From contig OX344763.1 in NCBI GenBank assembly GCA_947034895.1, forward strand, positions 32,301,025 through 32,365,024: a stretch of DNA of 64,000 nt. The letters run 5' to 3'. Every line of letters begins with the position of its first letter. The first letter of the stretch is position 1. The notes under the pieces are model-generated. The model made no database searches, was not told the origin of the DNA, and worked only from the letters and a program-made list of their open reading frames with translations. Of this stretch, positions 31,625 to 53,746 are shown one piece after another. The position numbers were made by a program, and so were the translations under genes. The stretch is from Rhytidiadelphus loreus. Lineage: Eukaryota > Streptophyta > Bryopsida > Hypnales > Hylocomiaceae.

Positions 31625-31632
31625 ATAGCTAC
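31625..31632. repeat. 8-bp target-site duplication, left copy
   Basis: ATAGCTAC directly precedes the terminal CAGGGTTGT and is repeated exactly after the other terminus (53739-53746). It fits the nTnnnnAn consensus of hAT target duplications. Confidence 0.93.
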
Positions 31633-31641
31633 CAGGGTTGT
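31633..31641 (+). repeat. left terminal inverted repeat of hAT element
   Basis: CAGGGTTGT matches exactly the reverse complement of the right end; similarity beyond 9 bp is weak. CAGGG is the usual hAT terminal start. Confidence 0.9.
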
Positions 31642-31675
31642 CTTGTCTGACATATTTTTGGGTTTAGGCATCGTG

Positions 31676-31761
31676 TATGACGTCTGACGTCGCGTGTCGC
31701 GTGTCACGAAGTGTCGAGTTTACTTGACATCGCGTCGCGGAGGGGTAAAAATTTTTACCCC
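31676..31761. other. left subterminal region: TGTCGCG words and a palindrome
   Basis: The words GACGTC, CGTCGCG, TGTCGCG, TGTCACG and GACATCGCGTCGCG are clustered here, and GACATCGCGCG-type words recur at the right end (53668-53725). Such subterminal repeats are where hAT transposases usually bind. They are followed by the perfect 20-bp palindrome GGGGTAAAAATTTTTACCCC (31742-31761). Confidence 0.6.
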
Positions 31762-31819
31762 ATGGTAAATAGATTTTGCCTATGTGGCAGGGCTTCAGAA
31801 CTGACGTGGACAGCCAGCG

Positions 31820-32070
31820 TGGGCGACTGCGGGTGTGGGCGCGTGCAGGTCTGCCTTGGGCGACCTCGGGTGGAAAAATTGAGGCGACTACGGGTGAAGG
31901 GGCAACTGCGGGTCTGGGGCGCTAGGGCGACTTCGGGTGAAGGGGCGACCGCGGCTTCGGGTACTAAGGGTGACCGCGGGTCCGACAGGTAGGGGCGACT
32001 GCGGGTTACAGGGCGACTGCGGGTCGGAGCAGCAGACAGCGACCGCGTGTTCCAGGGCGACCGCAGGTTC
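31820..32070. repeat. motif array A0 (left-terminal, outward reading)
   Basis: About ten irregularly spaced copies of GGGCGAC(T/C)GCGGGT lie on the plus strand; that is, (G)ACCCGC(A/G)GTCGCCC reads toward the left end of the element. No gene start follows it, unlike the internal arrays, so this array may serve the terminus. Confidence 0.85.
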
Positions 32071-32583
32071 AGTTTAGGATTTGAGTTTGGCATATTCAGT
32101 CTTTGAAGTAACACGTCACATAGGTGTTTTATAAGCGCAGAATTAGGTGCTACGTTATATTGGGGTTTACAATTTACAAGTGCAAATAATAGAGCCCATG
32201 AAATGTAAATTGGACAAACTTCTCTAATCCCAAAAATTCACCCAGTATAAGGCCACAATAATAATGTCAACAACGATTATATTAATTAGTCATCGATATT
32301 GCTTTGAGGCGGACTTCAAATGTAGCCATACTTGCATTGCACTTTTATAACCTCGTTGCAGTCATCACCTAACTGCCTACCAATTAGAACTCAACATATA
32401 TTTTAAAACCGGTAATTTGTCCCTCACTCTAATATGCTCATATGCTTGATGAAGCATTACAAAATCCTTACACATCAGGATGAAGGCTCAAAGCTTGAAC
32501 TACAAAGATTTGCTACCTAACATATAAGCTAAAACCTTATAACTATAACTATAACTATAATTATTGTCTACTTCTCTAGTACT
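32071..32583. other. 3' flank of transposase gene
   Basis: Gene-free AT-rich sequence between the terminal array and the transposase stop codon. It presumably holds the 3' UTR and polyadenylation signals. A short CTATAA tandem (32539-32560) is visible. Confidence 0.4.
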
Positions 32584-35500
32584 CTAGTCACCAGGCGTGA
32601 ATGTGGAATCACTCGGCACCTCATCAGCATTAGGGTCTGTATCTTCGTAAGACTCTTCGTTGCTCTTGTTGTCGCCCGAGCTTTCGATTTCATCATCTTC
32701 CCTTGTTACTACTTCGATTTGTACCTCACGCTCTACCTCTGAGTTCAGATTTCGAACTTCTATATCTACACCACTGAACCCTTCAGTTTGCACAAGTCGT
32801 TTCGTGAGCCTCAACGCATCCGTAGTTCCATCCATGTTGGATGCAGGGTGTCGCCCTCCTCTACTTGATTGTCCAACATTCTGGGTGGAACATCCCGCTC
32901 CAATGGTACACCGTTGGACAATTTGAGTGGGTCGTTTAGGATTTCGAGGTCCCCTCTCGTCAACCCTCCTAATACGCCTTTTCTGGCCTCTACTGTTGCG
33001 CCCCTGGATTCCTAATGATGATTCGCCAGGGCCAGACACAGATGAAGGTTGAGTGGGTTGTGGAGCTGAGCCGTGAACCTCTTCATCAATCGTCCGTAGA
33101 GCACCTCCACGCACCGGTGGCCTTGTTGGAAGGGTTGGGATAGACCTCCTCACTGTTGCCACATTTGTAGTCGTCTCTGGATTCAACGGCACATTCCGAC
33201 TTCGATTCATAACATATGCCAATGGCACATCATCATCATCATCTGTAGTAACAGTTGTTCTGAGGGTAGATGCGTTCAATACAACGGGATTTGGTATTCC
33301 CTCGTGTACAACTTCATTGACTTCGATGGCCTCTTCTTCATGTTCGCTTCTCATTGGAACTTGTGCACTGCTTCTTAAATTGCGGGCCATATTTGGAGGC
33401 GAACTAGTTGATATTGGAGATCTAGCTTCTTCCTCTACGGGTGCCATGGGAATAGGTACGCCTTTGTCGTTGTTGTCGGGGGTGCTTTCCCTCCTCAGTG
33501 ATGCATGTGCCGGCGAAATTGCATCCATATTGTACACGACGTTCTGCGGTGGACTGCGTACAGGTGAATTTCCCGGAGAAACATACCCATCGTCACTAAA
33601 ATCAAATGTATTCCCGTATATTGGTCGTGGAGGACTATGTGGCGGCCTAACCATTGCATTCCAAGGATTGTTGCGCAACCGATCCTCTTCATCCCTGCGG
33701 TTCTCGCGTTCTCTCATAAAATCTGGAACAACGTCGTCTTCTTCCCCTGAAGACAAAGGCCCATCACGCTCGTCCTCATCGTCTCCATCTGCAAGCATCT
33801 GGTCGTAAAAAATGGCTGGGTTGTGTCCACGTTTTTGACGTTCAAGTTTGCTGTTCGCGTAGATATACACCAATGTCTCTGCCTTTGTCGTGGCCAAGCG
33901 GTTTCGCACTTTATTGTGCACAAAGGAATACATGCTCCAATTCCTTTCACACGAAGATGCAGAGCACGTCAAACCGAGAATTCGCTTTGCAATTTTTGGA
34001 AGAGCATTGCCCCCCCCACGATTCCACCATTGATGAGGCAATAATTGACATTCAATGATATCGGGAGCCTCATGTAAAGGATCGAATGCACCTGTCTTCT
34101 CTTCAAATTGAGTTAGCTCCTGCATTGCTTCCACCACTGACACGTTCAATGGTACGCTCAGTTTTCGTATGACTCGATTCAAAGCTCCCTTCGCGTAGCC
34201 ATTGTTATGAATAGCCTCCACGTCACTCAAGTATGGATTTAGTAGTGCCCCCGTATAGTGTAGGTCAGTAATCATCAACTTCCAGCGAGCATCAAATTGT
34301 TTCTCATATCGTGTTGCTACCACTGGATCAAGGAAAAATGGAGCATTCTTGAGAGAATAAATGTGCTCCTTCAAGGCTGTCATCATTACTAAAGCTTTCG
34401 GCATTGCCGGGACTTTTCCATCAAAATGACGAAGACAAAGCAGCACGGGCTCTACCATATGGAGGAAATTGTCGCACTGAACCCAGAACTCTTCTGAACG
34501 GATATCTTGCCTTGCAAGTTTGGCCTTGTCCATAATGAAATGTCCATTTCTGCGGTTTTGCAAACTCAACTCGAACGTCATGTATGTCTCATCCAGTGTC
34601 ACATTGTGCACTGCTTGCTTGTAGTCTACCAAACGATCAATCATCAAGAAATTTGTGGCAAAACGTGTTTTGCTTGGAAGTCTCAACACTTTGTTTGGTG
34701 AAAATCTCCGAAACAACGCCAAAGTATGTTGGTATTTCTTGATGAACTTCACAATTGATGAAGCCTTTTTTACCAACTCCTTTACTCTCTGATCCTTTCC
34801 CCAATCTTCTAAGAGTAAGTCCAAAATGTGTGCCGCACAACCCTGCCTATAAATGTGAGGGTACCTTTCTTCCAACCTTGCCATCGCCCCCGTCATGACT
34901 ACAGCATTGTCCGTACACAATTGCACAACGTTGGTAGGCCCAACTTCCTCAATGTATCGTGCCATCGTCTCAGTTGTGTAAGATATATCCTTCTTCTCCC
35001 CAGTACTATCCACTGATCCCAAAAAGACATCCCCGGCGGGACACACCAACATCATATTTAGTAATGGCCGCGAATTAGTATCGGACCAACCATCTGAACA
35101 AATTGTTGCTCCATACTGACTTATTGAAACCCTCGTCCGCTCCGAGACCATGGCTTCAACCGATGCCTTCTTAACATCTATCATTTTCGTGCGAATCGCA
35201 TTATACGGTGGCGGTTGGTACACGAATCCAGCTGCTGCAGTTTGTTTAACAACATTCACGAAGGCCGGGTGACGCACAACATTAAATGAAATGTTCGCCT
35301 CGTAAAAGAAAGAAGCCCACAATCTATCCAACTCTTGTATGCGGCCTGTCTGTAATGATTCATCCATGCTTCTTTGCCGAGAAACAGATGGCATGTTCCT
35401 CCTTCTCTCAAGCGTTGTTCCAGTAGAATCTACTGAATCAGGCGTAGGATTTGGTCTTGCATTTGATTCAAAGGGATTGAGAGACCCTTCTTCTTCGACA

Positions 35501-35859
35501 TCCAACGCAGGTGCGACAATAGACTCTGCAACATTAACTGGTGCATCATGTCTAGCCGGTGCATCATACATCTCTTCGTAACTCATGGACCTTGGAACGT
35601 GCCCCTCGCCAGTCCGAAATTTTTCTCGTACAATTCTAGGGATCTCCTTACAACGCTCCGATGTAGTCGAGCCGCCATAGCCAAAGTGAATCAATGCTCT
35701 CTTTCGTATAAATGCTTTGCTCCACCCACAAAACACGCATTTTCGAGCATGGGGGGAATTATCAATTGGGGTACACGGTACTAGCCAAGGGTCCCAATCC
35801 TTTGTGGACCTCCGCGTATCATTCATGGTCCCCCCCCTCCCAACACCTTGTCCAGCCAT
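32584..35859 (-). CDS. hAT-superfamily transposase
   Basis: The protein has 1091 residues from ATG 35859 (MAGQGVGRGG), the first in-frame ATG; the open frame continues upstream without one. It should cut and reinsert the element in the nucleus. A BED-like zinc finger near the N-terminus (C41, C44, H58, C70) is followed by a DUF659/RNase-H-like domain (about 210-370). That domain contains ICSDGWSD (Asp256) and QLCTDNAV (Asp317). The hAT C-terminal dimerisation domain (about 602-672) carries CSASSCERNWS, whose Glu638 fits the third catalytic acid of the D-D-E triad. All key parts are present with no stop or frameshift, so it may be active. Unusually, about 420 residues follow the dimerisation domain. 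They are acidic and Ser/Pro-rich, with a basic KRRIRRVDERGPRNPKR patch. The promoter side carries array A1 and a TATA box. Confidence 0.93.
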   Translation of the reverse strand: MAGQGVGRGGTMNDTRRSTKDWDPWLVPCTPIDNSPHARKCVFCGWSKAFIRKRALIHFGYGGSTTSERCKEIPRIVREKFRTGEGHVPRSMSYEEMYDAPARHDAPVNVAESIVAPALDVEEEGSLNPFESNARPNPTPDSVDSTGTTLERRRNMPSVSRQRSMDESLQTGRIQELDRLWASFFYEANISFNVVRHPAFVNVVKQTAAAGFVYQPPPYNAIRTKMIDVKKASVEAMVSERTRVSISQYGATICSDGWSDTNSRPLLNMMLVCPAGDVFLGSVDSTGEKKDISYTTETMARYIEEVGPTNVVQLCTDNAVVMTGAMARLEERYPHIYRQGCAAHILDLLLEDWGKDQRVKELVKKASSIVKFIKKYQHTLALFRRFSPNKVLRLPSKTRFATNFLMIDRLVDYKQAVHNVTLDETYMTFELSLQNRRNGHFIMDKAKLARQDIRSEEFWVQCDNFLHMVEPVLLCLRHFDGKVPAMPKALVMMTALKEHIYSLKNAPFFLDPVVATRYEKQFDARWKLMITDLHYTGALLNPYLSDVEAIHNNGYAKGALNRVIRKLSVPLNVSVVEAMQELTQFEEKTGAFDPLHEAPDIIECQLLPHQWWNRGGGNALPKIAKRILGLTCSASSCERNWSMYSFVHNKVRNRLATTKAETLVYIYANSKLERQKRGHNPAIFYDQMLADGDDEDERDGPLSSGEEDDVVPDFMRERENRRDEEDRLRNNPWNAMVRPPHSPPRPIYGNTFDFSDDGYVSPGNSPVRSPPQNVVYNMDAISPAHASLRRESTPDNNDKGVPIPMAPVEEEARSPISTSSPPNMARNLRSSAQVPMRSEHEEEAIEVNEVVHEGIPNPVVLNASTLRTTVTTDDDDDVPLAYVMNRSRNVPLNPETTTNVATVRRSIPTLPTRPPVRGGALRTIDEEVHGSAPQPTQPSSVSGPGESSLGIQGRNSRGQKRRIRRVDERGPRNPKRPTQIVQRCTIGAGCSTQNVGQSSRGGRHPASNMDGTTDALRLTKRLVQTEGFSGVDIEVRNLNSEVEREVQIEVVTREDDEIESSGDNKSNEESYEDTDPNADEVPSDSTFTPGD

Positions 35860-36088
35860 GTAGTAGATCAACACTGGGTCTTCAAAGAAAATGACTACAA
35901 TAATCACACTAATACTATGGAAGATGTGATGACAAAGCAACCCGCTTAGAGTGGTCTTGTAAACCCTTCTAAACACGGTTGTTGCCCTCCGAAGAAGTTA
36001 AACGTCCGCATGAAGCCTCTTTCGAAGGTCCAAGACAAGAGTTTTATCAACGGAGCCAAGGTGATAAAACAAGGGGTACCCCTAGAAC

Positions 36089-36098
36089 TTTATATAAG
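36089..36098 (-). promoter_or_regulatory. TATA box of the transposase gene
   Basis: TTATATAAAG on the minus strand lies about 230 nt before ATG 35859 and just downstream of array A1. It is the best TATA-like sequence before this gene. Confidence 0.6.
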
Positions 36099-36110
36099 AA
36101 AACTCCTTGG

Positions 36111-36335
36111 ACCCGCGGTCGCCCCATGAGAGAATGCGGGTCCAAAAACCTGAAATCAGTCAGGTGATGGGCGACTGCGGGTCCAAGATTGGGCAACAGC
36201 GGGTCCAGAAGTGGGCAACTGCGGGTCCAGGAGTGGGTGACTGCGGGTCCAGAAGTGGGCGCCACGGGTCCAGTAATGGGCGACTGCGGGTCCAGAAACA
36301 GGCGACTGCGGGTCCAGGAACGGGCGACTGCCATT
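36111..36335. repeat. motif array A1, upstream of transposase
   Basis: About nine copies of GGGC(G/A)AC(T/A)GCGGGTCCA in plus orientation stand roughly 25-35 bp apart, preceded by one inverted copy at 36111. Seen from the minus-strand transposase gene they read ACCCGCAGTCGCCC toward the start. Confidence 0.88.
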
Positions 36336-36809
36336 TGTTTGGATAATTCTTGCATCCCCTGGGGTAATTTGGGGCCTATAATTGAAACTATGAATTCAGA
36401 ATTTCCACTAAAAAAATAAGCCTTGAAAATAAAAAATTCTAGTGTTTGCCCTAGAGTGGCAATGAGTAGGTCAATTCACCCTAGCCGTGACAATTGCTCT
36501 GAACTTCAATAACAAGTTCTTTTCCAATCCGGCAAGTTTTTAATTTTCCTTTTTTTTTTAATTCTCTTTTAATTCCAAAAGTCCGAACTTCCAAGGTCAT
36601 TTTCCTGCCAAAATTCCTAGAATATTCAAGTATTCACAACATTGCAAACATAAATAACCAAAAATTCATATCTATATTTATGTACTCTTGTCAAGGAACT
36701 ACATAGAATTCAATGTGCTTGCATTGGAATGTTCAAAATGGATAATATCCTTTTATATATACATAAGATGGAATATACATAGTCCTAAAAAATGTGCTAA
36801 AAATGAAAA
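36336..36809. other. spacer between array A1 and cargo gene B
   Basis: No gene. AT-rich sequence that forms the 3' flank of the minus-strand gene at 36810-38417 and the distal upstream region of the transposase gene. Confidence 0.4.
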
Positions 36810-38417
36810 TCATTCAACATCCATTTTGGCCTTTTCTTTGCGGTCATGAGCCTCACGTTCCATCTCATACAAGACTTTCCTACCTTCCAACTGCAAATTC
36901 CTAAGGTATCGGTCATCCTTCCCCAACTTCTTTTCCAACCAAAATTGCTTGTATGATTTTTGGAACTTCAAAAGCACCTTCAGTGCATCCCGATGTTCTT
37001 CCAATTTTGGATCCAATGACAAAGAAACCCCAAGCTTCTTTTTCAAGTCAACTACTTCCGTAAGAGACAATGCTTGTTTAGTAGCCACGTCTTTCCAACC
37101 ACACATTTCTGCAACACGGTCAAGGGAGGCTTTGTCCTTTAATGCTTTCAAGGAATTTAATCTTGATCGTGCTTCTTCCACCCCTCGCTTCTCCAAGTCT
37201 ATCTGATCTTCCTCCAGCTTGCATGCTTCCATAATTTTGGCAAGCCGTGATTTCGCAAACTCATTGCTAGAAGAACTAGATCCTCTAGCATGCCGAGAAG
37301 AGAATCTAAGGTAAAATGCTTCCAAGTCTAAAATCTTTGTTATTTGTGTTGACAAAAGAACTTGCCGACTTTCAAGTTCAGCACGTAAGCTATTCACAAT
37401 ATCTCCACTCAAAGTTTGCGTTTCTTGATTGCGAAGCTTCTCACATTCTAGATGCTTTTCATCCAACTCATTTAGAAGCTTCTTGAGTTGAGCTTTGTAA
37501 ACAACTTTGGTGTCCAACATTACTGTGTCAGGGACAGTTCCATCTTCAACAAATTCCTCACTTCGGTACATGTCATCAACACAATCCAATTGGAACAAAG
37601 AAGGCTTCACATCTTCTTCTGTTTCCATCTCTGTCCAAAAAACATCATCTTCTGCTTCTTGCATGCATGCAAGCACATACTGCAAAACTTTGTCTTCTTC
37701 AGTGCGAGGGACTGTAATCGGATTCACCATAGCAAAAAGCAAAATATCAAGATTTTGTGGTTGCCTAGCTGGTTCACCCTCTTCTTCCATTCTCGGGGGA
37801 GGTAAATTTTGTGAAGTAGAAGCCACCATCGCCATGTTTTGGGGTTGCATTGGAGGGTCTTCACCAAGGTTGTTTTCCTCTTCCGAAGATGAATCAGATG
37901 ACGTCCAATGAAACTGCTCATCGGGCACTCCCTCCTTCAAGTTTTTCTTCTAGCCTAGCCCTTCACGTGGATTGGCAGATAGAGCCGCCCTTGGGATGTC
38001 TTTTGTCGATGGAAGGCGAGCATGCTTCACTCCCTTGATTGAACTCCAATCCACGCTTCGAAACAAAATGAGTTCCGCATACACCATTGCACATATGTAA
38101 TACGGGACTTCGCTCCTGGGCACTGAATATGTGCCATACAAGTATCGATAAATTTCGATACAACGTTGCACAAATGCATCATTACGGCATGGATGCAAAT
38201 TGGCCGTATTGTTGCGCCGATTCGTGTAGTGCCGATGATAGGGGAATAACTTGTCGATGTGGCACCACCCCACGAAGGACTTACAAGTCTTGGCGGTCCA
38301 ATGGCCCGTAATTCAATCCCAACCTCGGTAGGCCACACACGCTGGGTCCAAAAGGATGCGTCGTTGCCTAGGGTGCATGGCTCCTTTTGCCTTGGTCTTC
38401 TTCTTGTGGTCCGCCAT
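36810..38417 (-). pseudogene. cargo gene B: WCHI-domain coiled-coil protein with two in-frame stops
   Basis: One frame of 536 codons starts at ATG 38417 (MADHKKKTKAKG). It holds TGA at 38315-38313 (codon 35) and TAG at 37952-37950 (codon 156). Codons on both sides of each stop align with the intact paralogues at 47441 and 50612: GWD[stop]ITGHW against GWEVKPEPW, then WCHIDKLFP, FVQRCIEIY, MVYAEL and VDWSSIK. The N-terminal domain (about 20-135) is therefore homologous. The remainder is acidic (SSDSSSEEENN) and then strongly coiled-coil (about 300-530). Both stops could arise by single C-to-T changes (CGA, CAG). Array A2 and the conserved box precede it. It is probably a recent pseudogene, and its molecular role is unknown. 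Confidence 0.75.
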
Positions 38418-38456
38418 TGGAGATGCTCTTGAGATTTGGGGCAAGGAATCTAAACT

Positions 38457-38520
38457 TAACCCTTAACCGCAAAGTATTATCTAGCTAAAGTTAACCCTAA
38501 ACCGCAAAGTATTATCTAGC
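38457..38520. promoter_or_regulatory. tandem telo-box-like repeat upstream of gene B
   Basis: AACCC(T)TAAACCGCAAAGTATTATCTAGC occurs twice here, 34 bp apart. A related AACCCTAAACCGCATAGTA lies upstream of gene D at about 47388. Telo-box-like words are known plant promoter elements; their function here is inferred. Confidence 0.4.
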
Positions 38521-38592
38521 GATTAGTGAGTGATGGAGTAAAATCAAGAACATGAGCCACATGTAAGTGAAACTCAAAACCCAAGCTCCCGA

Positions 38593-38634
38593 GCACGCAA
38601 TCAGCCACTGTAAAGTAGGTGAAAGGCAATACGC
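38593..38634 (-). promoter_or_regulatory. conserved cargo box, gene B
   Basis: On the minus strand it reads GCGTATTGCCTTTCACCT, then GTGGCTGATTGCGTGC, about 176 nt before ATG 38417. The same two words stand upstream of the other four cargo genes. Confidence 0.65.
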
Positions 38635-38680
38635 AGCAAGAAGGGAAAGTGGCGAAGTCGGGTGGGGAGACAGCTAATTA

Positions 38681-38910
38681 ACCCGCAATCGCCCTGGGGC
38701 GAGTGCGGGAAGGGGCACGTGCAGGTCTGAGAGCGACCGCGGGTAGGGCGACTGCGGGTCTAAGGGGCCGACTGCGAAGGCGACTGCGGGTAGGGCGACT
38801 GCGGGTCTGGGGCTACTTGGGATGGGCGACCGCGTGTGGGGCACCACAGAGTAATTTCTGGACCCCTACAGTGGGGCGACCGCGGGTGGGCGACTGCGGG
38901 TACAGGGCGG
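38681..38910. repeat. motif array A2, upstream of cargo gene B
   Basis: About nine copies of GGGCGAC(T/C)GCGGGT lie on the plus strand. As seen from the minus-strand gene B they read ACCCGCAGTCGCCC toward the start. The first copy (38681) is inverted. Confidence 0.87.
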
Positions 38911-40168
38911 GATTTTGAATTTCTGAACCTCTAAGACTTTCACTTTGAAGTTCTCTTATACAAAATTGTGGACATAAATTTTAGTTACCAATGCACTTCA
39001 TAAAAATGTATTGCACCTTTTCATCTTTTATTTAAAAATTTGGGTTATGCATCTTTAGCCATTTTATTAATTATTGTTGCAACTTATTAGATTTGACATG
39101 CAAAAAGAAGATTCCCACCCTAACATCACTTCTGCAATTTCAATAAGAAAATAATCAAACATAAGAAATTTACCATCCATGATTCACATGGTTGCGTTTT
39201 ATTTTCCAATGCAATCTCTATTATGTTTAGTTTGAATTTGTATGATGAATCCATTGTAAAACAAGATCCAACTATAAAGAATGTGGGATTCTTGATCAAT
39301 GTAGACTACTTTCGGAGAGCTCCAAAAGAAGGGGTTTGGGAATTGAGGGATAAATACCTTTTATTCATTTATAGTCAAGTGTGATTGACACATTATAAAT
39401 TGCGTGAGAGAACAAAACTCAATATAATCAATTATACAATGCATAGGATAGGTGTAGTAAGATGGTTATTCAAATATCTCATAAGGATTGGGTGTGACAG
39501 CATGAGCTCCCATATAACTTTCATCATGTGCTTCATCAAGCACCGTGAAGGTGTAGTTGGGAACTAATTGTCACAATTAATTGTCATAGCTATTTCCCAG
39601 CTGATTTCATGGTTTTGTTCAAATTTTATTTATCTGTACATTCATAGGTATCCAAACAATAAAACTTGTTTCATATTAATTAAAAGTGTAGCCATCATAT
39701 TTACAAACAAAGGGATTAAATCAAGGGCATACATTTGTACATTTTCAATATTTGGGGATTTCAAACTTGTGAACCAAGAATAACAAGCCACAACATTTAT
39801 GGGGGTATATATTTTATTGGGGGGGTCACATTTATGGGTATATATTTTTTGGGAGGGGTCACATATGTAAACCATTAAAGTATTGGGCACTAATCAATTA
39901 AACATTCATATACCATGGACTGTTTAGCAAAATATGATCATCCATCTGAGATAAACAATCCATGCATTGTTTAGCAAAATCATAGTATAGAAATGTAAAA
40001 TGAAGTTCTTTGTCAAGCACATTGCTATTTCACATGTCTAGCATGACTTTAGTACTATTATCTTCATAAATAACTTATTTCTTTTTATGATCTTAACTCA
40101 AAAATCAAAATAGGGTCTTATGCCATGGTACAAGGCTGCCGTTTGATGCACCACAACAATGTCTCTAG
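38911..40168. other. AT-rich spacer inside the hAT element
   Basis: No gene supported. It separates the promoter array of gene B from the 3' end of gene C. The near-duplicate phrase GGGTATATATTTTATTGGGG / GGGTATATATTTTTTGGGAG stands at about 39802 and 39836. Otherwise featureless. Confidence 0.4.
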
Positions 40169-41484: not shown

Positions 41485-41603
41485 TATCCTAAACTAATGG
41501 AAAAGATTTTGGGTTCATTGAAGTATACAAGAAGTGTCTGCTGTATTGTTGGCTGTTTGTGGGAAACCAAAAAAACCACGAGACCTCCACAACATTGGGC
41601 CCA

Positions 41604-41640
41604 CATTCAGCCACTACAAGGTAGGTGAACTACAAGGCGC
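41604..41640 (-). promoter_or_regulatory. conserved cargo box, gene C
   Basis: On the minus strand it reads GCGCCTTGTAGTTCACCT, then GTGGCTGAATG, between array A3 and the first candidate exon of gene C. It matches the boxes of genes B, D, E and the kinase. Confidence 0.6.
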
Positions 41641-41683
41641 AGTTATGAAAATTATGGACCACAGGCTGGAACAGCCCATGAAA

Positions 41684-42205
41684 TACCCGCGGTCGCCAGG
41701 GGCGCATGTGCTAACCCTAACACGGATACTAGGGCGACAGCGCATGGGGCGACTGCGCGTGGGGCGACCGTGGATCCGGTCCAAGGATCCTTCGCGTCTT
41801 TCAAGGGCGACCTCGGATCAGGGCGACCGCGGGTCAAGGCGACCTCGGGTCAGGGCGACCTCGGGTCCTCGAGGGGGAAACACATTTCAAAATCCCCCCT
41901 CCATCAGGGCGACTGCGCATAGGGGGCGACTGCAGGTCAAGGAGAAAATGCAAACTCCTTGACCCGCAGTCGCCCCCTACGCGCAGTCGCCCATATGGAA
42001 GGGGAGGGAGACACCAAATACTTTTCCACCCTCTATCAGGGCGACTGCGCGTAGGGGGCGACTACGGGTCAAGGTGGGAGACACCAAAAATTTCGAAAAT
42101 GCAATCTCCCCCCTTCCATCAGGGCGACTGCGCGTAGGGGGCGACTGCGGGTCCCCAGATCACTTCCAAAATCAGACCTGGGGTTCTAGGGCGACTGCGG
42201 GTATG
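41684..42205. repeat. motif array A3, upstream of gene C
   Basis: There are more than twelve copies of the motif, mostly GGGCGACTGCG(C/G)GT on the plus strand. A higher-order unit of about 100 bp (CATCAGGGCGACTGCGCGTA + GGGGGCGACTGCGGGTCAAG) is repeated at about 41905, 42037 and 42118, with one inverted pair at 41957-41990. Confidence 0.87.
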
Positions 42206-43275: not shown

Positions 43276-43321
43276 ACTTAAGCGTTAGCCCCACTTTCGA
43301 TTCTCACCTTACTTTAGCCTT

Positions 43322-45047: not shown

Positions 45048-46810
45048 TAGGATAGTCTAGAGCAAGAGTTTAGTGGTACAAGCAATGAGCTTGGTGGCCA
45101 ATTATGTGTTGCTTACTTTGTAATATTTTCCTATAATATATGAAGGAATTTTATGCTACGCGCCTTGTCTTTAGAAAAACAATTACTCAATGGGCTATTT
45201 GTCAAATTGTATATATTGAATATGGCCTTTTACACATTGTTATGCAAAGTATAACAACTTTTGAATTCAAATGTTCTTGGTCCTTTTTGATTCCGTAGTA
45301 TATAATGGCCGCAAGGAAAATAAGAAAATGAAAATAAATTAGTTGGTAATTGATGTTGAAGACTTGTATTATTTCTTGAATAAAATGTGCTAGTATGCAC
45401 TTGAAAGGAGTTTTACTTTCATGGTCATTGAATTCAAATAGTTGTTTTTTCAATCCCTAAAAAAATGTAAGTCATACATCATTTACATTCTCTTATTATT
45501 TTTTCTATTTCCAAAAATAAAAGCAAGTTGGTTTTTTTTTCCTATTTATTCTAATTCAAATATAGGAAACATACATTTTAGACTTTTTTAGACTTTTCCT
45601 TTTTATTCGTACTTTACCTATTTCAAAATAGATGAGAGATGTTTTTATTTATTTATTTAACCTTTTTCGCTCTCTTCCTATTTATTTTATTTGGAAAAAG
45701 GAAGTTCATTGACTTCTTGCGACCCCTTTTTTTTTTGAGACAATGAAACAAGAGTGGATATTGCAAAAAAGATATGTAGCCATAATCTTTGTCATTTATT
45801 AAACACGCAATTCGAGAAAACTTGGATGAATTCAATAATAAATGTAAATCTGGTTTTACCATATATATTATTCCTAGTAGCATAATGTTTTCCTACCATA
45901 TTCTTTTTTTTGGTATATGTCATCCAAATTGATAAAAACACACATTCTTTCATAGATGGTTGGAGTATGATATAAGTCCAACAATGACTTTCATTTATAG
46001 ATTTGTGTCCGTACAAGAAATTTAGTTATTAGGCATGTAATTTACCAAAATTAGTGTGTGTAACATAGTATGTAATTTGAGTCTACATCCAAAAATACAT
46101 AATGAACATCTCATGTCAAAACAATTACAAAGACATTATTGTTACAATTGCAATGGTTAATACTTAATAATCATAACATTGGTTATTAACAATTGAATTA
46201 GTTATTAACAATAAAATTAGTCATTAACAATGAAATAAGTCATTTACAATAAAATTAAGAATTAACAATGAAATTAATTAATAAGAAAAAAATTAGTTAA
46301 CAAGAACTTCTTCTAAAACAATTGCAAAGATTTAACTTTTGTTCAGATAATCAATAAGGAATCCATTTGTACCACAACCGACCTCAACCCTAATGGCTCC
46401 CCAAATATAGTATAAAGTATAAACTAGTATTCCATAAATTTTGCAACAGAAATGGGATTGAGCTCACAATCCTTTTTTTTTCCCTTGAGATTTGGTGCTC
46501 AAAAGCAACAAAAAATTTAGGCTAGCTATAAGCTATAGGAATTTTTTAGGAAAATTTTGGATGAAATTGCTAGAAAAACTTCAACTTCTAGAAAAGTCTT
46601 CGATGAAATCGCCACAATGTAAATGAAAATAGAATTTTAGATACTTAGTATCACATTTTCTATCCAGTACGTGGATGAATTTTGAAGCTTGGAGCCCCTC
46701 CGTAACATTTAGTATCGCCACTTTCCCAGCGCAAGGAAAAATGGAAAAAAATATCACAATCTATAAACATGTACTAAGAAAGAAAAGAAAAGTCCATGCA
46801 TTAATAGATG
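45048..46810. other. AT-rich spacer inside the hAT element
   Basis: No gene supported. At about 46150-46305 there is an irregular tandem repeat of roughly 21 bp (TTAGTTATTAACAATAAAAT-like). The rest is AT-rich 3' flank of the kinase-like gene. Confidence 0.45.
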
Positions 46811-47157
46811 GACCCGCGGTCGCCTGGGACCCGAGGTTGCCCAGGACCCGCTGTCGCCCAGGACCCGCGGTCGCCTTCGCAAAGTGGACCCGTAGTCGTC
46901 CTGGACCCGCGGTCGCCCACTCGCCCGGGCTCCTTCAACCCGCGATCGCGTTGGAGCACCTGTCCAGACCCGCAGTCGCCCCACTCTAGGACCTGCGGTC
47001 GCCCTGGAGCACTTGCGCTGACCCGCACTCGCCCCACTTCCGGACCCGCGGTTGCCCTGGAGCACTGGGCTGACCCACACTCGCCCCACTTCAGGACCCG
47101 CACGCGCCCCAGGGCGACCTCGGGTACATCAGCGTTCTCTTCCACCCGCAATCGCCA
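46811..47157. repeat. motif array A5, upstream of gene D
   Basis: About thirteen copies of GACCCGC(A/G)GTCGCC read toward the plus-strand gene D. The array ends GGCGACCTCGGGTACATC followed by AGCGTT, parallel to the end of array A4. Confidence 0.88.
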
Positions 47158-47179
47158 TTAAATTTTCCCTGGCATTCTA

Positions 47180-47218
47180 CGCACTGTCTTTCACCTGCTG
47201 ACGTGGCTGAATGCGTGC
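47180..47218 (+). promoter_or_regulatory. conserved cargo box, gene D
   Basis: CGCACTGTCTTTCACCT, then GTGGCTGAATGCGTGC, 223 nt before ATG 47441. This is the clearest copy of the shared box. Confidence 0.7.
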
Positions 47219-47440
47219 ACAGAAGCTAGGGGTTTGAGTTGTGGGGGGGGGGTTTTGTCCCTTTGCACGGCTCATTTTATTCACGCTTGGATGACATAGG
47301 GTGTTTCACGAGAACATTGTATTTTTGTAAATGTTAAATGTGATAGGATTACGTTTAGCATTTTTTACACCTACGGTTTAGGCTTGCAACCCTAAACCGC
47401 ATAGTACTTAGTTGGCTACTTTTGAGACGAAGTGATCGTT

Positions 47441-48931
47441 ATGGAGGGCGAGGACTCTCAACCGCCACACGGTATGTCAAGATACCGACTTCGGCTCAAC
47501 AAAAAGGCGGTTCGTGACAAGGATCGTAAAAGGAGCGGCAAACCTCGCAAGAAGCGTGTACCCATCTTGTTGCATCCAAAGATGAAGGCCTTTTTGGGAT
47601 GGGAAGTAAAACCAGAGCCTTGGACATATGAAACTGTAAACAAATATGTGGATTGGTGCCACATCAACAAATTGTTCCCGTTTTGGCGACACCCTTTGCA
47701 TGTGAAGTCTAATAAGGCAAATTTGGCTTACTGCAAGAGTGTTGTCTTCCAGCGAAGGTGTTTGGAGGTATGGCAGCAACTCTATTTGGAGTCCCAGCCT
47801 TATCGAAATGACAACTTCTCTTTCTATCTTGTGCAAATGGTGTACGTTGAAGTTCAATTGAAGAAAAAGGTAGATTGGACAATCTTGAAGGAGCTTCCTA
47901 TCGGTGACCGCCCGGATAGACCGATAGTGCTGGATGAAGAAGGACTTCTTCAAGCAAATCAGAAGCTTTTAGAGGCAAAGCCTGGCAAGTTGGCTATTGG
48001 TGATGACCAAGTTCAATGGTCTTCAACTTCTAGCTCAGATGAGCACACTCACGAATACGATGGATATTCTTTTGAGAGTGACGACGAAGACATTGGCAAA
48101 GAAAAACAAGAGGCGGCTGAAGACGTTCAAGTTGACAAGAAGGGCAAGAGGAAGCTTGAGGAGCCGCAATCATTGTCCAAGATTCAAAAACAAAGTGAAG
48201 ATGTTCATGTACCGATCAATGTGGACCGTTCTGGTGCAGACATTGGGTCTAGCGGAAGTAGTGACAATGATTCGGAAGACAATTTGGAGATGTTGGGCAC
48301 TAAGATCGAAAGTGCACGAGCAGCTTTGACTTCAACAGTAGCGGATCTTATGAATTTGAAAGAGAAGGTACAACATCTTCCAGTGAATCCAACTGTTGTG
48401 GATGGGTTGAAGAAGGAGTTAGAGGCGACTGAAAACGCCGTTGCTGAAAATGAGAAGATTTACTCTAAGTTAAACAAAAGTAGAGTAAATTATTTCAAGA
48501 AGATCGAAGACGGGCGAGCACACATTTCCGATGATTTAGCGGTGCTTCAAAATAAACTTGATCTTTTGCAACGTGATAAATGGTCCCATCAAAGCGAAAG
48601 GAGAAGCTTGAATCTTCAAATACGTGAGCTAGAGATGGAATATTATGATGATGCCTTAAAAGAAGCCAAAAAAGAGGGCATCTTGGCTTTAGCTCCGGAT
48701 TATGGTAGCAATACAGAAGAAAGAGCAACGCTTTTTTATTTGGTGAAGCTACTGGAGAAAAAACAAGAGTTGTTGCACGAGGGCATATTGGACTTGGAGC
48801 GCCACATCCTTTATTTTAAGGAATGGCGCAAGTGGGCCTATGAAGGCATAGGTGCCACCCGTGCGGAACTTCAAAGAATGAGACCGGAGCCCAAAGAAAG
48901 TGACTTTGTGAATAGTGAAAAAAATGCTTAG
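47441..48931 (+). CDS. cargo gene D: WCHI-domain coiled-coil protein
   Basis: An intact single-exon gene of 496 residues from ATG 47441; the frame extends three codons upstream without an ATG. The N-terminus is very basic (KDRKRSGKPRKKR) and may act as a nuclear signal. The shared domain (about 38-152) contains FLGWEVKPEPW, VDWCHINKLFPFWRH, KANLAYCKS, FQRRCLEVWQQLY, MVYVEVQL and VDWTILKE. These motifs recur at the same spacing in genes B and E. An acidic Ser-rich linker (about 200-290) is followed by a long coiled coil (about 290-440) and a basic tail. No known domain family is recognised. The position of the conserved domain after a basic patch suggests nucleic-acid or partner binding, as inference only. 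Array A5 and the conserved box lie upstream. Confidence 0.85.
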   Translation: MEGEDSQPPHGMSRYRLRLNKKAVRDKDRKRSGKPRKKRVPILLHPKMKAFLGWEVKPEPWTYETVNKYVDWCHINKLFPFWRHPLHVKSNKANLAYCKSVVFQRRCLEVWQQLYLESQPYRNDNFSFYLVQMVYVEVQLKKKVDWTILKELPIGDRPDRPIVLDEEGLLQANQKLLEAKPGKLAIGDDQVQWSSTSSSDEHTHEYDGYSFESDDEDIGKEKQEAAEDVQVDKKGKRKLEEPQSLSKIQKQSEDVHVPINVDRSGADIGSSGSSDNDSEDNLEMLGTKIESARAALTSTVADLMNLKEKVQHLPVNPTVVDGLKKELEATENAVAENEKIYSKLNKSRVNYFKKIEDGRAHISDDLAVLQNKLDLLQRDKWSHQSERRSLNLQIRELEMEYYDDALKEAKKEGILALAPDYGSNTEERATLFYLVKLLEKKQELLHEGILDLERHILYFKEWRKWAYEGIGATRAELQRMRPEPKESDFVNSEKNA

Positions 48932-50611
48932 TGGTTGGATCTAGTGTGGTAGAAAAAAACAATTTGGCCTTCCAATTTTTGATTTTCCAAAGGTTTTGTG
49001 GAATAAAGAAATTCACACCTTTGTTTTTGAAATGTACATATGTTTTTATTATATTTTGAATACGAGGGCTATGAATTTGGTGTCTTTGCAAGAATGGATG
49101 TCAGAGATGGTACCTACGGGCTGAAATTTGGGACTGAATTTTTGAAACTTTATTTGAAGATAGAAAAAACGATTACCTTTGTGGTAATATAACTTTTTTT
49201 CCAAGCGGTGCCCGGGAACAAAAGTTATGCCCATATAGTCCAAACTCCAAAGCAGGGGAAAATGGGCAGCAAAAAAATGTGACAAGCATTTGAATTTATT
49301 TTTCTAAGTTTTTTTCCCTCATAGATTATAATTTTGTCTATCCGGAAAGCTTTTTTTCATTTCATTTGGATATTTTATGAGAAAGTTATGGACAATCTTG
49401 TTTATTGGGCAATTAGAGCTTCTGGTGGGAAAAATACCTTGTAAGATTAATTTAGGAACGCAATTTTGGCAATTGTTCAAGAAAAGAAGTTTGACATGGT
49501 TTAGTTTGCTTGCAACAACAATTTGACCGTGGGGATTAGTGCATTTTAATTCTATCTTAGAAAGAAAATAGATTTTCATTCAATCTCATATGTACTTCTA
49601 TTCTACAAGTTTTTTAAGAATGAAAATTAAGTTTTTTTGAAAACCTTTTTTTTATTTAGACTCTCAACTCAATTCTCCACTATATTTGTTTAAAGCTCAA
49701 AACTCTGTAGTGCAAGAAATTAAAGTGAAAAATGTTAAAAGTCAAATAATGTAGTCCAGCAATGTGCTGAAAAAATTGTTTTTTTCACTCTAAATGCGGA
49801 TATCTTGCAAAGTTGCAATCTGTAAGATGAAAAATTCTGAAATTTTTTCCACACATTCTCATACTAGTAAGGTGTAAGATCCTATGGTTATGTGTGGGAA
49901 AAAAACAATTTTCAAAAACAATTTTGGATACTTTAAGAAATTGTTGAGTAGAAGTAGGTAAGATGTAGTTGTAGAATTTAAATAATGAATATCTCTAAAA
50001 TGAAATGAAAATGGTGAGAGTGTGCTATCAAGTGAAGTTAACTATGTGACCGGACCTAATTTTTTTTTAGATTGTAGAAATTGCCTGGAGAAACAAATCC
50101 TACAAGCAACTTTTAAAAGAAGAAGCTGTAGACTCAAGTTGCCCGCCAAACAAAATGGTCCATAACTTTCGCATAAAAAATCTGAATGGAATGAATCAAA
50201 TTTTTCCATGTAAACAAAAACATGTTGTATGAGAAAAAAATCCAAAAGGAAAAAATTCATTAAAAGATTTGAAGATAGCAATTTTGTGGGGACCGTGTAT
50301 GGAATCATTGTGCGAGGCATTACAACAAATGTATTTGCATTTCACCAATTACATTTTAGGCTACAAATGTATAAGTATGCCCAAACCTTCAAAACCAAAG
50401 CAATAGAAGGTTGTTGTCCATAAGCATAGTAGTACAATACACAGCCAAGGCGGTATAGTTTTAGAAGCCAACATCTTAACCCTAACTTTTGCTAGAGTAC
50501 TACATTGTGCGAGTATGGATATACTATGGCCCTTATACTATGGGCCTTACATCTTGTATACTACTATGATTAATTAGAACCACCGTTGAAGTAAGTATCT
50601 CATAGAAATAT
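48932..50611. other. convergent spacer between genes D and E
   Basis: No gene. AT-rich 3' flanks of two convergent cargo genes. The part at about 49140-49890 is related to 6350-8115 outside the element (listed there). Confidence 0.45.
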
Positions 50612-53119
50612 TTAGTTCAAGTCCATTGGATTGTTCTGAGAACCACTCGTTGCACCTTGTTCGTAATCATTGGACTCTCCAACAACGAGTTTCTTCTTAG
50701 CACGAGTCCTTGAAGCAGGTCCATCTGCTTCTAAAATAGATTCCAAGACATTGGAGTTCTTGAGAGCTTCAAGTGTCCTTTTAGTTTGCGGAGAGTGTAA
50801 CTCCAATAGATAATCGAGTGCTTGGCTTTGATAATAAGGCCCGTATGTTGAGTCGAGGTAAGCCATACTATTCAAGTCTTCTGGAGTGGCATTTTCATCA
50901 CGATTAGCCCCTTGTTCACCTTCAAAATTCCAACGGTGTCCTTCCGGATGAGCACCCCACTTGAAGGTTTGGGATGTCTTATCAAAATATCCACCAAGGC
51001 ATTGAAAAAAAAACGCCCTCTTCCCTGTATTGTGAGCTCCTTTTCCCATAAGGTTGAATGCCACTCTTAGAATTTCACGCGGGTCCGTTTCCCAATTCAA
51101 TTGTGAGGCAGCAGCTCCCATTTCTTGATCATGTAGGCCTTCTCGCCAACTCCAAAGCAAGTCTCGTCCCCAAAATCGTGTCTCTGCCGTCGTGTCTCTA
51201 TTGTGTTCCCAAGAAGGTGGCATGTAAGTCATCAAGTTGAACATGGTATACAAGCGATCATGGAATGGTGCTACACAAATCACACATCGTCGTCTAATCA
51301 GACATTGAGTGATGAGACACTGAGGATGGTACACATGTGTACATGATCCAAGTGCCCATCCTCCTTCTGGCCCAAATTGTTCTAGACATATGGGGCATTT
51401 GGTATGATCCAAGACGAAATGAGCTGGCTTTGGCCACAATAGACTTTGGTCTTTTTCGTTGAAGTGACTAGACATCTGATTTCCATGGTCCCAACCATTT
51501 TGTGCCCAGTCTATGACATTTTTTTCCGCCACGTCAAGCATGGACATGTTATCCGGAAACATGTCCTCCATCAATGCCCATGATGTCAATCCATTCTCTC
51601 GTTTAGGGGCATTTGCTACAAAGTTCTTCGAAACTTTGTCTAGCTCTTTCGCAACTTGTTGAGATCGATCCACGGAGAGAATGCACGCGACCTTCCAATG
51701 ATAGTATGTCGCTGCCAACACTGCCAACTTCTCTCGAAGCATTCTATTTTCCTCAGCCAAATCAAGTTCCTTTGATGATTGTAAATGTGGAATGGCAGGA
51801 AACGAAAGTGAATCCTGAGTCCCTTGCAAACCATCAACGTGCGGATTGCTAGAATCTCTTGAGACGAACGGAAGTGGTGCCATTGGAAGAATTGAAGAAC
51901 GCTTCGTACGCTTGGCAGGGGGAGAAAGGTGAATGACATCGATGGTGAGGTCCCCAACAAGCTTGTCCAAGTGATGTGGATCCTGCTCAACAAAGGTTTC
52001 GTCCATGTCCGACAATGTGAAAGTCTGACGCTCTTTTTCTCGAAGGCCTTGTAATTCTTTGGATTGTTGAGAAATGAGAGCATTTTTTTGTTCACATGTA
52101 GACCGCCATTTCTTCACATCACCTTCTAAGGTTGCAATTTGTGCATCCTTGGTCTTCAAGAGGTCGAGAGCCTTCGCCAACGTCATCGCATTGTGAACAA
52201 CATCAGATTCAGACTGTGGAATGGAAATGTGACTTGTGGCACATACGGGTGAGTCGTCACTTAAAGCAAAGTCGAAGACGTTGCTGGCGTCTTGTGGTGG
52301 CAAGATTGGAGTCGCAATTGTGGTTGAGGCTGATGCCAATCTAATTTTCGTGGTGGACCGTCGCACCTTCGCAGGATGTTTCATCTTCTTTCCCCGTGAT
52401 GATGAAGCGGCTTGAACATTTGGATCTGGAACTGGAACTGGAACTGGAACTTGGACGGGGGTGATAATCTGCTCCTTCACTCGTACAAGCTTAGGAATCT
52501 GTGTGCCATCTGAATCATTATCCTCTTCTGATTCTTCCGTGTCCACCTCTTGAGTTTCTTTGTTTTGTGGATCACTTCGAAAAGGCCCAAGTCCACCCTC
52601 CGGAAATTTGAGAACCCCTCTTGGAATTATTCCAACTTCTGGACGCTCCACGTAGGTACTTTCTTTGATCGTGGTCCAGTCAACTTGTTTGTTCAAGGCG
52701 ACCTCAGCATAGGCACCTCTAGCAATGAACAAAGGGGCCTCATTCCTATCTACGAAAGGGGTTTTGTAGAGGACCTGCCACAATTCTAAACACCTTTGTA
52801 TGAAAGCTGGATTTTCACAATACTTCAAATTTGCCTTGTTATTGTGTCGGTTGTGATGATGGCGCCATGCCGGAAAGAACTTCCCGATGTGACACCATTC
52901 AATGTAGTCTTCGCACACCTGCATACTCCAAGGCTCTGGCTCCTCGTTCCACTCTTTGAAAGTTAGGTGGTTATCATTGTTCAACACATGCCATCGCTTC
53001 TTGTGAATGTTACCCCTCCTTTTTCTAGTCTTGTCTTTGGCAGCCTTCCTAATTGCACCAGGATTGCGTACAGTGGAAAAAACCGGAAGGGACCCATCAC
53101 TGCTACCTCTAGTTGCCAT
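50612..53119 (-). CDS. cargo gene E: WCHI-domain protein fused to a RING-H2 finger
   Basis: An intact single-exon gene of 835 residues from ATG 53119 (MATRGSSDGS). The shared N-terminal domain (about 40-155) contains FKEWNEEPEPW, IEWCHIGKFFPAWRH, KANLKYCEN, FIQRCLELWQVLY, YAEVALNKQVDWTTIKE. Then come an acidic linker (EESEEDNDSD), a VPVPVPVP run (about 223), a basic patch, two coiled coils (about 310-365 and 445-500) and a RING-H2 finger (575-615: CPIC, CTHVYHPQC, CVIC). RING-H2 proteins are usually ubiquitin E3 ligases. A C-terminal ~220-residue region (WETDPREILRVAFNLMGKG) is unassigned. It probably acts as an E3-like adaptor for whatever the WCHI domain binds; targets are unknown. Array A6, a TATA-like CTATATAG (53274-53281) and a conserved box precede it. 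Confidence 0.88.
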   Translation of the reverse strand: MATRGSSDGSLPVFSTVRNPGAIRKAAKDKTRKRRGNIHKKRWHVLNNDNHLTFKEWNEEPEPWSMQVCEDYIEWCHIGKFFPAWRHHHNRHNNKANLKYCENPAFIQRCLELWQVLYKTPFVDRNEAPLFIARGAYAEVALNKQVDWTTIKESTYVERPEVGIIPRGVLKFPEGGLGPFRSDPQNKETQEVDTEESEEDNDSDGTQIPKLVRVKEQIITPVQVPVPVPVPDPNVQAASSSRGKKMKHPAKVRRSTTKIRLASASTTIATPILPPQDASNVFDFALSDDSPVCATSHISIPQSESDVVHNAMTLAKALDLLKTKDAQIATLEGDVKKWRSTCEQKNALISQQSKELQGLREKERQTFTLSDMDETFVEQDPHHLDKLVGDLTIDVIHLSPPAKRTKRSSILPMAPLPFVSRDSSNPHVDGLQGTQDSLSFPAIPHLQSSKELDLAEENRMLREKLAVLAATYYHWKVACILSVDRSQQVAKELDKVSKNFVANAPKRENGLTSWALMEDMFPDNMSMLDVAEKNVIDWAQNGWDHGNQMSSHFNEKDQSLLWPKPAHFVLDHTKCPICLEQFGPEGGWALGSCTHVYHPQCLITQCLIRRRCVICVAPFHDRLYTMFNLMTYMPPSWEHNRDTTAETRFWGRDLLWSWREGLHDQEMGAAASQLNWETDPREILRVAFNLMGKGAHNTGKRAFFFQCLGGYFDKTSQTFKWGAHPEGHRWNFEGEQGANRDENATPEDLNSMAYLDSTYGPYYQSQALDYLLELHSPQTKRTLEALKNSNVLESILEADGPASRTRAKKKLVVGESNDYEQGATSGSQNNPMDLN

Positions 53120-53193
53120 GAGATTTGCGGACGTCGCAAAATTCTAAGAACCAAATGATAGCAAAAAATAGTATATATATTATCCAAAAGGGT

Positions 53194-53230
53194 CACGCAT
53201 GCAGCCAACAAAGGTTGCAAGACAGAAAGC
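53194..53230 (-). promoter_or_regulatory. conserved cargo box, gene E
   Basis: On the minus strand it reads GCTTTCTGTCTTGCAACCT, then TTGGCTGCATGCGTG, about 75 nt before ATG 53119 and about 45 nt after a CTATATAG. This copy is more diverged than the others but keeps GGCTG(A/C)ATGCGTG. Confidence 0.55.
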
Positions 53231-53280
53231 CTCAATGGAAAATGAAGGTGATAGCATGATGATGGGCTACTGGCTATATA

Positions 53281-53587
53281 GGGCGAGTGACTTCAGTCTA
53301 GGGGGGCGAGTACGGATAGGGCAACTGCGTATCCAGCGACTGTGGGTCTGGGTAGGGCAACAGCGGGTCTCGAGAGGGCGACAGCGGGTCCAAATTGGAC
53401 GACTTCAGGTCCACCACCGGGTCTAGGTACCTTTTGCACACCCGCGGTCGCCCACCCAAGAACACTTCCTGAACCCGCGGTCTCCTTGCCAAACCCGCAG
53501 TCGCCCACCCGCGGTCTCCCTCAGAAATCCGCAGTCGCCCACCCGCAGTCGCCCCTACCCGCACTCTCCTACTCGTACGCGCCCTCC
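53281..53587. repeat. motif array A6, upstream of gene E and right terminus
   Basis: The inner half (53281-53425) is GGGCGACAGCGGGTC-like, reading as ACCCGCNGTCGCCC toward the minus-strand gene E. The outer half (53440-53575) is in the opposite orientation and reads outward toward the right end of the element. This mirrors array A0 at the left end. Confidence 0.87.
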
Positions 53588-53725
53588 AGTTTGCCAAGTG
53601 GATGCCATGTGGCATCCACCTGGAGGGGGGTAATTTCCTGTAAAGTGAAAGGTAAATTTGACTTTTCGTGACATCGCGCGGGCTCTACTAGACATCGCGC
53701 GACATCTGTCTGTCGCGCTGTCGCA
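53584..53725. other. right subterminal region: stem-loop and GACATCGCG words
   Basis: CCTCCAG...GTGGATGCCA-TG-TGGCATCCAC-CTGGAGG (53584-53626) can form a hairpin. It is followed by TGACATCGCGCG, AGACATCGCGCG and GTCGCGCTGTCGC, counterparts of the words at the left end. Confidence 0.6.
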
Positions 53726-53729
53726 GCGA

Positions 53730-53738
53730 ACAACCCTG
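53730..53738 (-). repeat. right terminal inverted repeat of hAT element
   Basis: ACAACCCTG is the exact reverse complement of the left terminus CAGGGTTGT and is directly followed by the duplicated target ATAGCTAC. Confidence 0.9.
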
Positions 53739-53746
53739 ATAGCTAC
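53739..53746. repeat. 8-bp target-site duplication, right copy
   Basis: ATAGCTAC is identical to 31625-31632, which fixes the right boundary of the element to the base. Confidence 0.93.

Follow-up and report, generated by a model that had tools for sequence, protein, structure and literature searches.

Structure of the element

The DNA stretch analyzed here (the window) comprises 64,000 nucleotides of the moss Rhytidiadelphus loreus, corresponding to C3:32301025-32365024 in its own genome (407 Mb in 489 contigs, of which C1 to C5, at 94, 90, 85, 75, and 51 Mb, sum to 395 Mb). It contains a 22,106-bp element (31633..53738) that encodes one open hAT transposase open reading frame (ORF) and five further genes, six genes in total, and that is flanked on both sides by the 8-bp duplication ATAGCTAC. 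The hAT-type features found are this 8-bp duplication, short CAGGG-type terminal inverted repeats, and a transposase with an hAT dimerization domain. The window copy almost certainly belongs to a high-copy family of giant hAT elements, 22 to 23 kb in length, that moved as a single unit. The element and its genes are laid out as follows (aa, amino acids):

31625..31632, unstranded: left target-site duplication ATAGCTAC; other 8-mers stand at the equivalent junction of other copies
31633..53738, unstranded: complete giant hAT element, 22,106 bp; five further complete copies, 98.4-98.5% identical end to end
31633..31641, plus strand: left terminal inverted repeat CAGGGTTGT; the 30-mer from here has 567 genome matches
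32584..35997, minus strand: hAT transposase ORF, 1137 aa; candidate ATG at 35859; DUF659 and hAT dimerization domains; candidate D/D/E
36810..38417, minus strand: cargo gene B, shared N-terminal domain and long tail; in-frame stops here, open elsewhere, up to 556 aa
40174..41493, minus strand: cargo gene F, small and intron-rich, about six exons modeled by eye; 5' start uncertain
43455..45047, plus strand: cargo gene C, protein kinase; 536 aa stop to stop in other copies, in-frame stops here
47441..48931, plus strand: cargo gene D, shared N-terminal domain and long tail; 501-aa frame, open here
50612..53119, minus strand: cargo gene E, shared N-terminal domain, RING-like finger, and conserved C-terminal part; 843-aa frame, open here
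53730..53738, minus strand: right terminal inverted repeat ACAACCCTG; the 21-mer ending here has 448 genome matches
53739..53746, unstranded: right target-site duplication ATAGCTAC, from sequence inspection

A first-pass annotation of this DNA had described an exact 8-bp duplication, 9-bp inverted termini, an intact hAT transposase, and five further genes. The duplication is present at 31625-31632 and 53739-53746, and the termini are CAGGGTTGT at 31633 and its reverse complement ACAACCCTG ending at 53738, with other complete copies ending likewise. The transposase frame is indeed open, and the count of five genes was right, with B and the kinase interrupted in the window copy and uninterrupted in some others, while D and E are open here. 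Taken alone, the ends of the window copy are weak evidence: ATAGCTAC is present at four places in the window, and the exact terminal 9-mer has one internal recurrence, at 34837 in the transposase ORF. The ends are proven by copies at other loci, which share the termini and carry other 8-bp duplications.

Copy number and complete insertions

Genome searches allowing up to two mismatches, with reversed-pattern controls that each gave 0 matches, returned 567 matches for a 30-mer of the left end (273 forward, 294 reverse), 448 for a 21-mer of the right end (216 forward, 232 reverse), 268 for a kinase 30-mer (128 forward, 140 reverse), and 269 for a 30-mer of the RING gene, E (125 forward, 144 reverse). 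The kinase and RING 30-mers lie 6.7 kb apart in the window, yet they are equally numerous genome-wide; cargo-bearing copies in the genome number roughly 270. Pairing of the two genes used 69 of the 100 listed exact matches of each gene, those on C1 and C2; of the 69 kinase matches, 38 have a same-strand exact RING-gene match within 7.5 kb, 11 have one at 7.5 to 30 kb, and 20 have none in the exact-match list. With the left end as query (31625-31900), at least 40 copies were recovered at 97-100% identity among the best 40 of 804 candidates. Thirty-nine of these 40 matches start at query base 4 to 9, base 9 being 31633 and bases 4 to 8 being duplication positions where chance matches are expected; the remaining one is the window itself.

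Seven left ends were fetched with 20 to 30 kb of sequence and yielded five complete copies of 22.35 to 22.79 kb, with duplications CTTAGAAC, ACTGACAT/GCTGACAT, GGTGCAGA/GGTGCAGG, TATCGGGG, and GGAATGAT; one of the other two is split by an insertion of about 17 kb, and one extends past the fetched stretch. In a sample of 20 further left ends, seven have a right end 22.2 to 23.1 kb away, six of them with matching duplications (five at 8/8, one at 7/8). Copies read at both ends therefore number 13, from 22.1 to 23.1 kb, and 12 of the 13 have their own 8-bp duplication (the window, five of the seven fetched, and six of the 20 sampled). All 12 duplications are different, nine exact and three with one mismatch, which bears out the earlier expectation of several 15- to 30-kb insertions with different duplications.

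Six complete copies, the window included, were aligned and are colinear over 22 kb, with pairwise identities of 98.3-98.8%, cargo included. Because identity is nearly equal across all pairs, the alignment suggests that the family multiplied in a recent burst. Plant mutation rates lie near 7e-9 per site per year; at such a rate the burst would be of the order of one million years old, a dating that would need the mutation rate to be fixed. The AT-rich noncoding stretches at 45133-46632 and 49133-50632 show some of the lowest divergence between copies (0.2-0.9% per 500-bp bin, versus 0.5-4.4% elsewhere); the predominance of C-to-T changes may be the reason.

Target sites, empty sites, and smaller derivatives

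Elements of the hAT superfamily make 8-bp duplications of the form nTnnnnAn, have CAGGG-type termini, and are usually a few kilobases long. Among 50 distinct insertion 8-mers, one per insertion and at least nine of them from smaller derivatives, 30 have T as the second base, 32 have A as the seventh, and 21 have both (background 0.09, P about 5e-10). The insertion sites show the nTnnnnAn preference that is the hAT signature.

Precise empty sites are given by two nested insertions, for derivatives only. A 5.4-kb derivative at C1:19154500, with GTAGATTC on both sides, is nested in a giant copy, and its flanks overlap by exactly 8 bases (window-equivalent 35426-35433). A 361-bp derivative with the same termini is nested in the transposase of copy c3, at 34680-34687. 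Matching duplications were not found for the nested copy at C2:27797101. The empty sites called for earlier were obtained for these two derivatives inside giant copies and not for this third insertion.

End pairing used 100 left ends from the listing (exact matches, all on C1 or on C2 to 34 Mb) and 75 of the 100 listed right ends (to C2:34.2 Mb); for 57 of these left ends a listed right end lies no more than 60 kb away. A giant size class comprises 16 pairs at 22.2 to 23.7 kb, one of which is the sampled copy L044, and other pairs lie between or beyond this class and a second class of 5 to 7 kb. One giant pair (C1:23976050-C1:23999760, 23.7 kb) was rejected as spurious, as its right end is that of the host element, whose duplication ATTGAGAT matches; 15 of the 16 stand. 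L093 (C1:971942-977824) is a 5.48-kb deletion derivative with CTTTGAAC on both sides; it retains the ends and the region of gene F but has neither the transposase nor the other cargo. L094 (C1:14230768-14237928) is 6.76 kb long with duplication ATTATAAG and shares little besides the ends; its termini are of the same kind and its interior is largely unrelated, as in another family on the same ends.

Transposase

The transposase matches DUF659 in Pfam at 1.3e-35 (122.7 bits, cut-off 34.7) and the hAT dimerization domain PF05699 at 1.3e-4 (22.1 bits, barely over the cut-off of 21.4). A weak phmmer alignment to Hermes (E value 0.007) places SDGWSD (first aspartate), GCAAH (C..H), and the ER of SSCERNWS in register; zinc-finger-like residues were assigned by eye. 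Two named relatives come from the mosses Physcomitrium patens and Ceratodon purpureus, at 40-41% identity over two thirds of the core, and unnamed metagenome proteins are up to 74% identical. One further relative (P0073, 71% identical) is labeled as from a metagenome-assembled genome of Bacilli and is probably eukaryotic contamination in that bin.

Cargo genes

In the column majority of the six aligned copies, no internal stop occurs in any of the five long ORFs, and the ancestor of the burst would therefore have had all five open. The kinase is well conserved: K257, E274, HND at 369-371, N376, D395, and APE at 429-431 are invariant in 12 aligned sequences, namely the query and 11 of its 57 relatives, which are 32-69% identical to it. 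Thirty-eight of the 57 relatives cover at least 80% of the query. Among genomic kinase copies, the best 81 of 1360 candidates are all full length, and 59 of these 81 lack a stop.

The RING-like finger of gene E matches Pfam RING families at E values of 2e-5 to 2e-4, below the curated cut-offs. A zf-RING_2 match is found in 10 of 12 gene E family members (at E values up to 1), and a profile of the family matches RNF24 at 2e-7. The 11 relatives of gene E are 36-72% identical to it, seven of them covering at least 82%, and the RING cysteines are nearly invariant among them. A full-length structure model of the RING protein was poor (predicted local distance difference test [pLDDT] score of 42) and was not used. 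B, D, and E have a paralogous N-terminal domain of about 145 to 205 aa in common, with 34-42% identity and invariant W, C, and H positions. This domain has no Pfam match above cut-off, and a moderate model of it (pLDDT 68) has no fold match in PDB or BFVD, where all E values exceed 1. The exon model of gene F has no Pfam match.

A viral origin of the cargo was considered and rejected. Relatives of the RING family were not found in viral contigs with two peptide patterns, B, D, and E have no PHROG match, and C has only a generic kinase match.

A motif common to the ends and the gene starts

With up to two mismatches, GGCGACTGCGGGT, a motif picked by inspecting the ends, occurs 77 times inside the element versus 0 times in the 41.9 kb of the window outside it; the maximum in 20 composition shuffles is 2. 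The copies form seven clusters. One is left subterminal; the other six precede the six gene starts, one each, at distances of 180 to 285 bp, the gene E cluster doubling as the right subterminal one:

31822..32068, plus strand: left subterminal cluster of GGCGACTGCGGGT-like motifs, 10 copies, all plus
36111..36313, plus strand: cluster 252 bp upstream of the transposase ATG, 7 copies
38681..38901, plus strand: cluster 264 bp upstream of gene B, 9 copies
41685..42202, plus strand: cluster about 190 bp upstream of the first modeled exon of gene F, 14 copies
42882..43275, both strands: cluster 180 bp upstream of the kinase, 14 copies, 7 per orientation
46812..47156, minus strand: cluster 285 bp upstream of gene D, 13 copies, 12 of them minus
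53335..53569, unstranded: right subterminal cluster, 216 bp upstream of gene E, 10 copies

None of 200,000 random placements of seven clusters put one that near all six genes. A promoter-like block around TTTCACCTAC..GTGGCTGAATGCGTGC is common to B, F, the kinase, and D, and is weaker in E. Judged from sequence, this layout would fairly probably be a shared-motif transposon regulon.

Comparison with known systems

Like other members of the hAT superfamily (Ac/Ds, Tam3, Hermes, and DUF659-type elements), the family has 8-bp nTnnnnAn duplications, short CAGGG-type termini, a dimerization domain, subterminal repeats, and deletion derivatives with the same ends. It differs from them in being 22 kb rather than a few kilobases long, in its five extra genes, and in a subterminal motif that is repeated before every gene. 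By the features tested it is an hAT, and it is new in size, gene content, and motif layout.

Parallels in scale lie outside this superfamily. Starships of fungi have a tyrosine recombinase captain and typically measure about 100 kb, with a cargo of tens to hundreds of genes (PMC11623301). Both are giant DNA elements with several genes besides the mobility gene; unlike Starships, the moss family encodes an hAT transposase and repeats a single set of five genes in hundreds of copies, and a Pfam scan of the long element ORFs found no tyrosine recombinase (DUF3435) captain. The parallel to fungal cargo elements drawn in the first-pass annotation therefore holds for the logic of a gene-carrying giant and fails for the machinery. 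Nor was there a Pfam match to Maverick/Polinton protein-primed polymerase, integrase, or capsid genes among the element ORFs scanned. Class II giants with accessory genes are also described in algae, as KDZ, EnSpm, and Sola-1 elements in Ectocarpus (PMC12477816, where a table puts hAT at 0.05% of the genome) and as En/Spm elements of 16 to 20 kb in Chondrus crispus (PMC6431247). These are similar in class, in length (10 to 30 kb), in having accessory genes, and, for some, in copy number, but belong to other superfamilies and algal hosts; CACTA termini with a 3-bp duplication or a KDZ transposase were not found in the window element, which has CAGGG termini, an 8-bp duplication, and an hAT transposase.

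En/Spm encodes TnpA and has subterminal motifs near its promoter, and MuDR carries the accessory gene mudrB. Both resemble the moss element in combining an accessory element protein with subterminal repeats tied to the element's own promoter, whereas they have one or two genes and the moss element has six, every gene being preceded by a motif cluster of its own. Pack-MULEs and gene-carrying Helitrons are likewise plant DNA elements with genes aboard, mostly gene fragments, and the Pack-MULE transposase acts in trans (PMC6431247). Here, whole conserved ORFs travel together with a transposase, and in place of MULE ends, captured fragments, and the lack of a transposase, the element has hAT ends, its own transposase, and whole ORFs. 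The term hAT does not occur in a 2019 review of giant transposons (PMC6431247), and a partial literature search, with most subscription papers and all preprints outside its scope, found no giant hAT with cargo.

Proposed mechanism and alternative explanations

The cut-and-paste route of hAT elements is known from Hermes and Ac, in which the transposase recognizes the ends and the subterminal repeats. By analogy, the moss transposase would bind the ends, excise the whole 22 kb, and reinsert it, leaving an 8-bp duplication; the element would thus appear to be self-mobilizing. A protein of the element itself may bind the motif clusters; the candidates are the transposase and the N-terminal domain that B, D, and E have in common. 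As the motif stands before every gene, the same protein or domain might also control the cargo, an arrangement known from TnpA of En/Spm, and transposition and cargo expression could then be wired together. We speculate that the kinase and the RING-like protein have accessory functions, either regulating the transposase or countering host silencing. Overall, a giant hAT that moved as a unit is very probably the best explanation, the motif-wired cargo and the accessory role of the kinase and RING-like protein being its less certain parts. Somewhat short of an even chance, and tentative, is the wider proposal of a self-contained regulon: an hAT lineage with its own five-gene accessory apparatus, in which one element protein would coordinate excision and expression, forming a giant class parallel to Starships, in mosses, and older than the species. 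The apparatus as proposed consists of a kinase, a RING ligase, and a duplicated family of new DNA-binding-like domains, with the same putative binding motif at every promoter and both ends. The greater age of the gene set is proposed because the best relatives of the transposase core (74%), the kinase (69%), and the RING protein (66% over its length) show comparable divergence; these relatives are not known to belong to one organism.

That the cargo serves the element has, in our judgment, about an even chance, and we prefer it to passive capture or host benefit; whole conserved ORFs, the equal copy number of two cargo genes, and the shared cis-motifs support it. Passive capture of five host genes by a giant hAT, in the manner of Pack-MULEs or Helitrons and with no function for the element, is unlikely. 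Capture of gene fragments is frequent in plant class II elements (PMC6431247), and of the 400 singleton changes counted across the five long ORFs, 23 are stops, with selection not seen. The cargo nonetheless consists of whole long ORFs whose relatives are often nearly full length, with the kinase residues invariant and the RING cysteines nearly so. All five cargo genes carry the element's own motif clusters, B, F, the kinase, and D (and weakly E) have the promoter-like block, and three of the five are mutual paralogues. The saturated search turned up no host locus of origin, although one could have escaped it. It is more doubtful still that the kinase and RING protein help the plant, as the cargo of some Starships helps fungi. 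Signaling-type proteins with conserved active sites would suit such a role, but about 270 similar copies and independent breaks in the copies read fit selfish spread, the cis-motifs are common to cargo and ends, and Pfam recognized no defense or metabolic family in the cargo, no dedicated defense-library search having been made.

Whether the 22 kb is one unit at all can be answered more firmly. Two smaller or nested hAT elements could mimic one through matching outer ends, as the internal motif clusters resemble the ends and 5- to 7-kb elements with the same ends exist. Such an origin is highly improbable and was rejected, and the possibility raised in the first-pass annotation that the ends belong to two unrelated small elements is excluded with it: copies at six different loci are colinear over the full length, the kinase and RING counts agree (268 versus 269), and the only exact internal 9-mer sits in the transposase ORF. 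Segmental or assembly duplication, which the high identity of the copies might evoke, has next to no probability and was likewise rejected, since identity stops at the termini, the flanks are unrelated, and 12 of 13 copies have their own duplication.

Several observations weigh against the reading of a giant hAT moved with functional, motif-wired cargo. In each of the six aligned copies at least one of the five long ORFs is not open; the full transposase frame is open in only two of them (the window and c6). In the Hermes alignment the second aspartate block, CTDNA, is out of register and was paired with TDRG by eye. Within the burst, selection on the cargo is not seen: the five long ORFs carry 265 nonsynonymous, 23 stop, and 112 synonymous singleton changes, a ratio of 2.6 to 1 against unweighted site ratios of 3.4-4.0 with the C-to-T excess uncorrected (362 of 429 changes), and shared changes comprise 17 nonsynonymous, 1 stop, and 11 synonymous. 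These counts prove nothing either way, because changes after insertion are expected to be nearly neutral. Only 57 of the 100 left ends pair, 16 of them in the 5- to 7-kb class (5.1 to 6.8 kb), and 43 are unpaired. Among the 20 sampled left ends, 10 have no element sequence 21.7 to 23.2 kb away, and three show an interior shifted by insertions; at least two of the 10 (L036 and L046) keep a same-strand kinase near the expected 12 kb, and another, L042, is a 5.48-kb derivative. L044 has a right end but a duplication that does not match. Transposase-less derivatives occupy the same ends with duplications, so that the cargo is not needed in cis. As to the motif layout, the start codons were chosen by us, and the start of F is merely the first visible exon.

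The family shows that an hAT can carry a 22-kb multigene load to hundreds of sites, which widens the range of transposon types able to act as gene vehicles. A system that multiplied recently in a moss, with 98.5% identity between copies, bears on the self-regulation of giant DNA transposons and on whether their extra genes fight host silencing, and the shared motif makes the regulon idea directly testable.

Window surroundings

Outside the element, 937-4894 and 9665-14252 form a segmental duplication of 89-93% identity that carries a kinase-like ORF and an LEA_2-like ORF (a weak Pfam match), the second kinase copy being split. The stretch 17566-18414 has a 94% match near another left-end copy (C4:32.04 Mb) and is a dispersed repeat of another kind. 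At 20908-21190 a 33-bp unit is repeated in tandem 8.7 times, and several of its reading frames would give a repetitive peptide.

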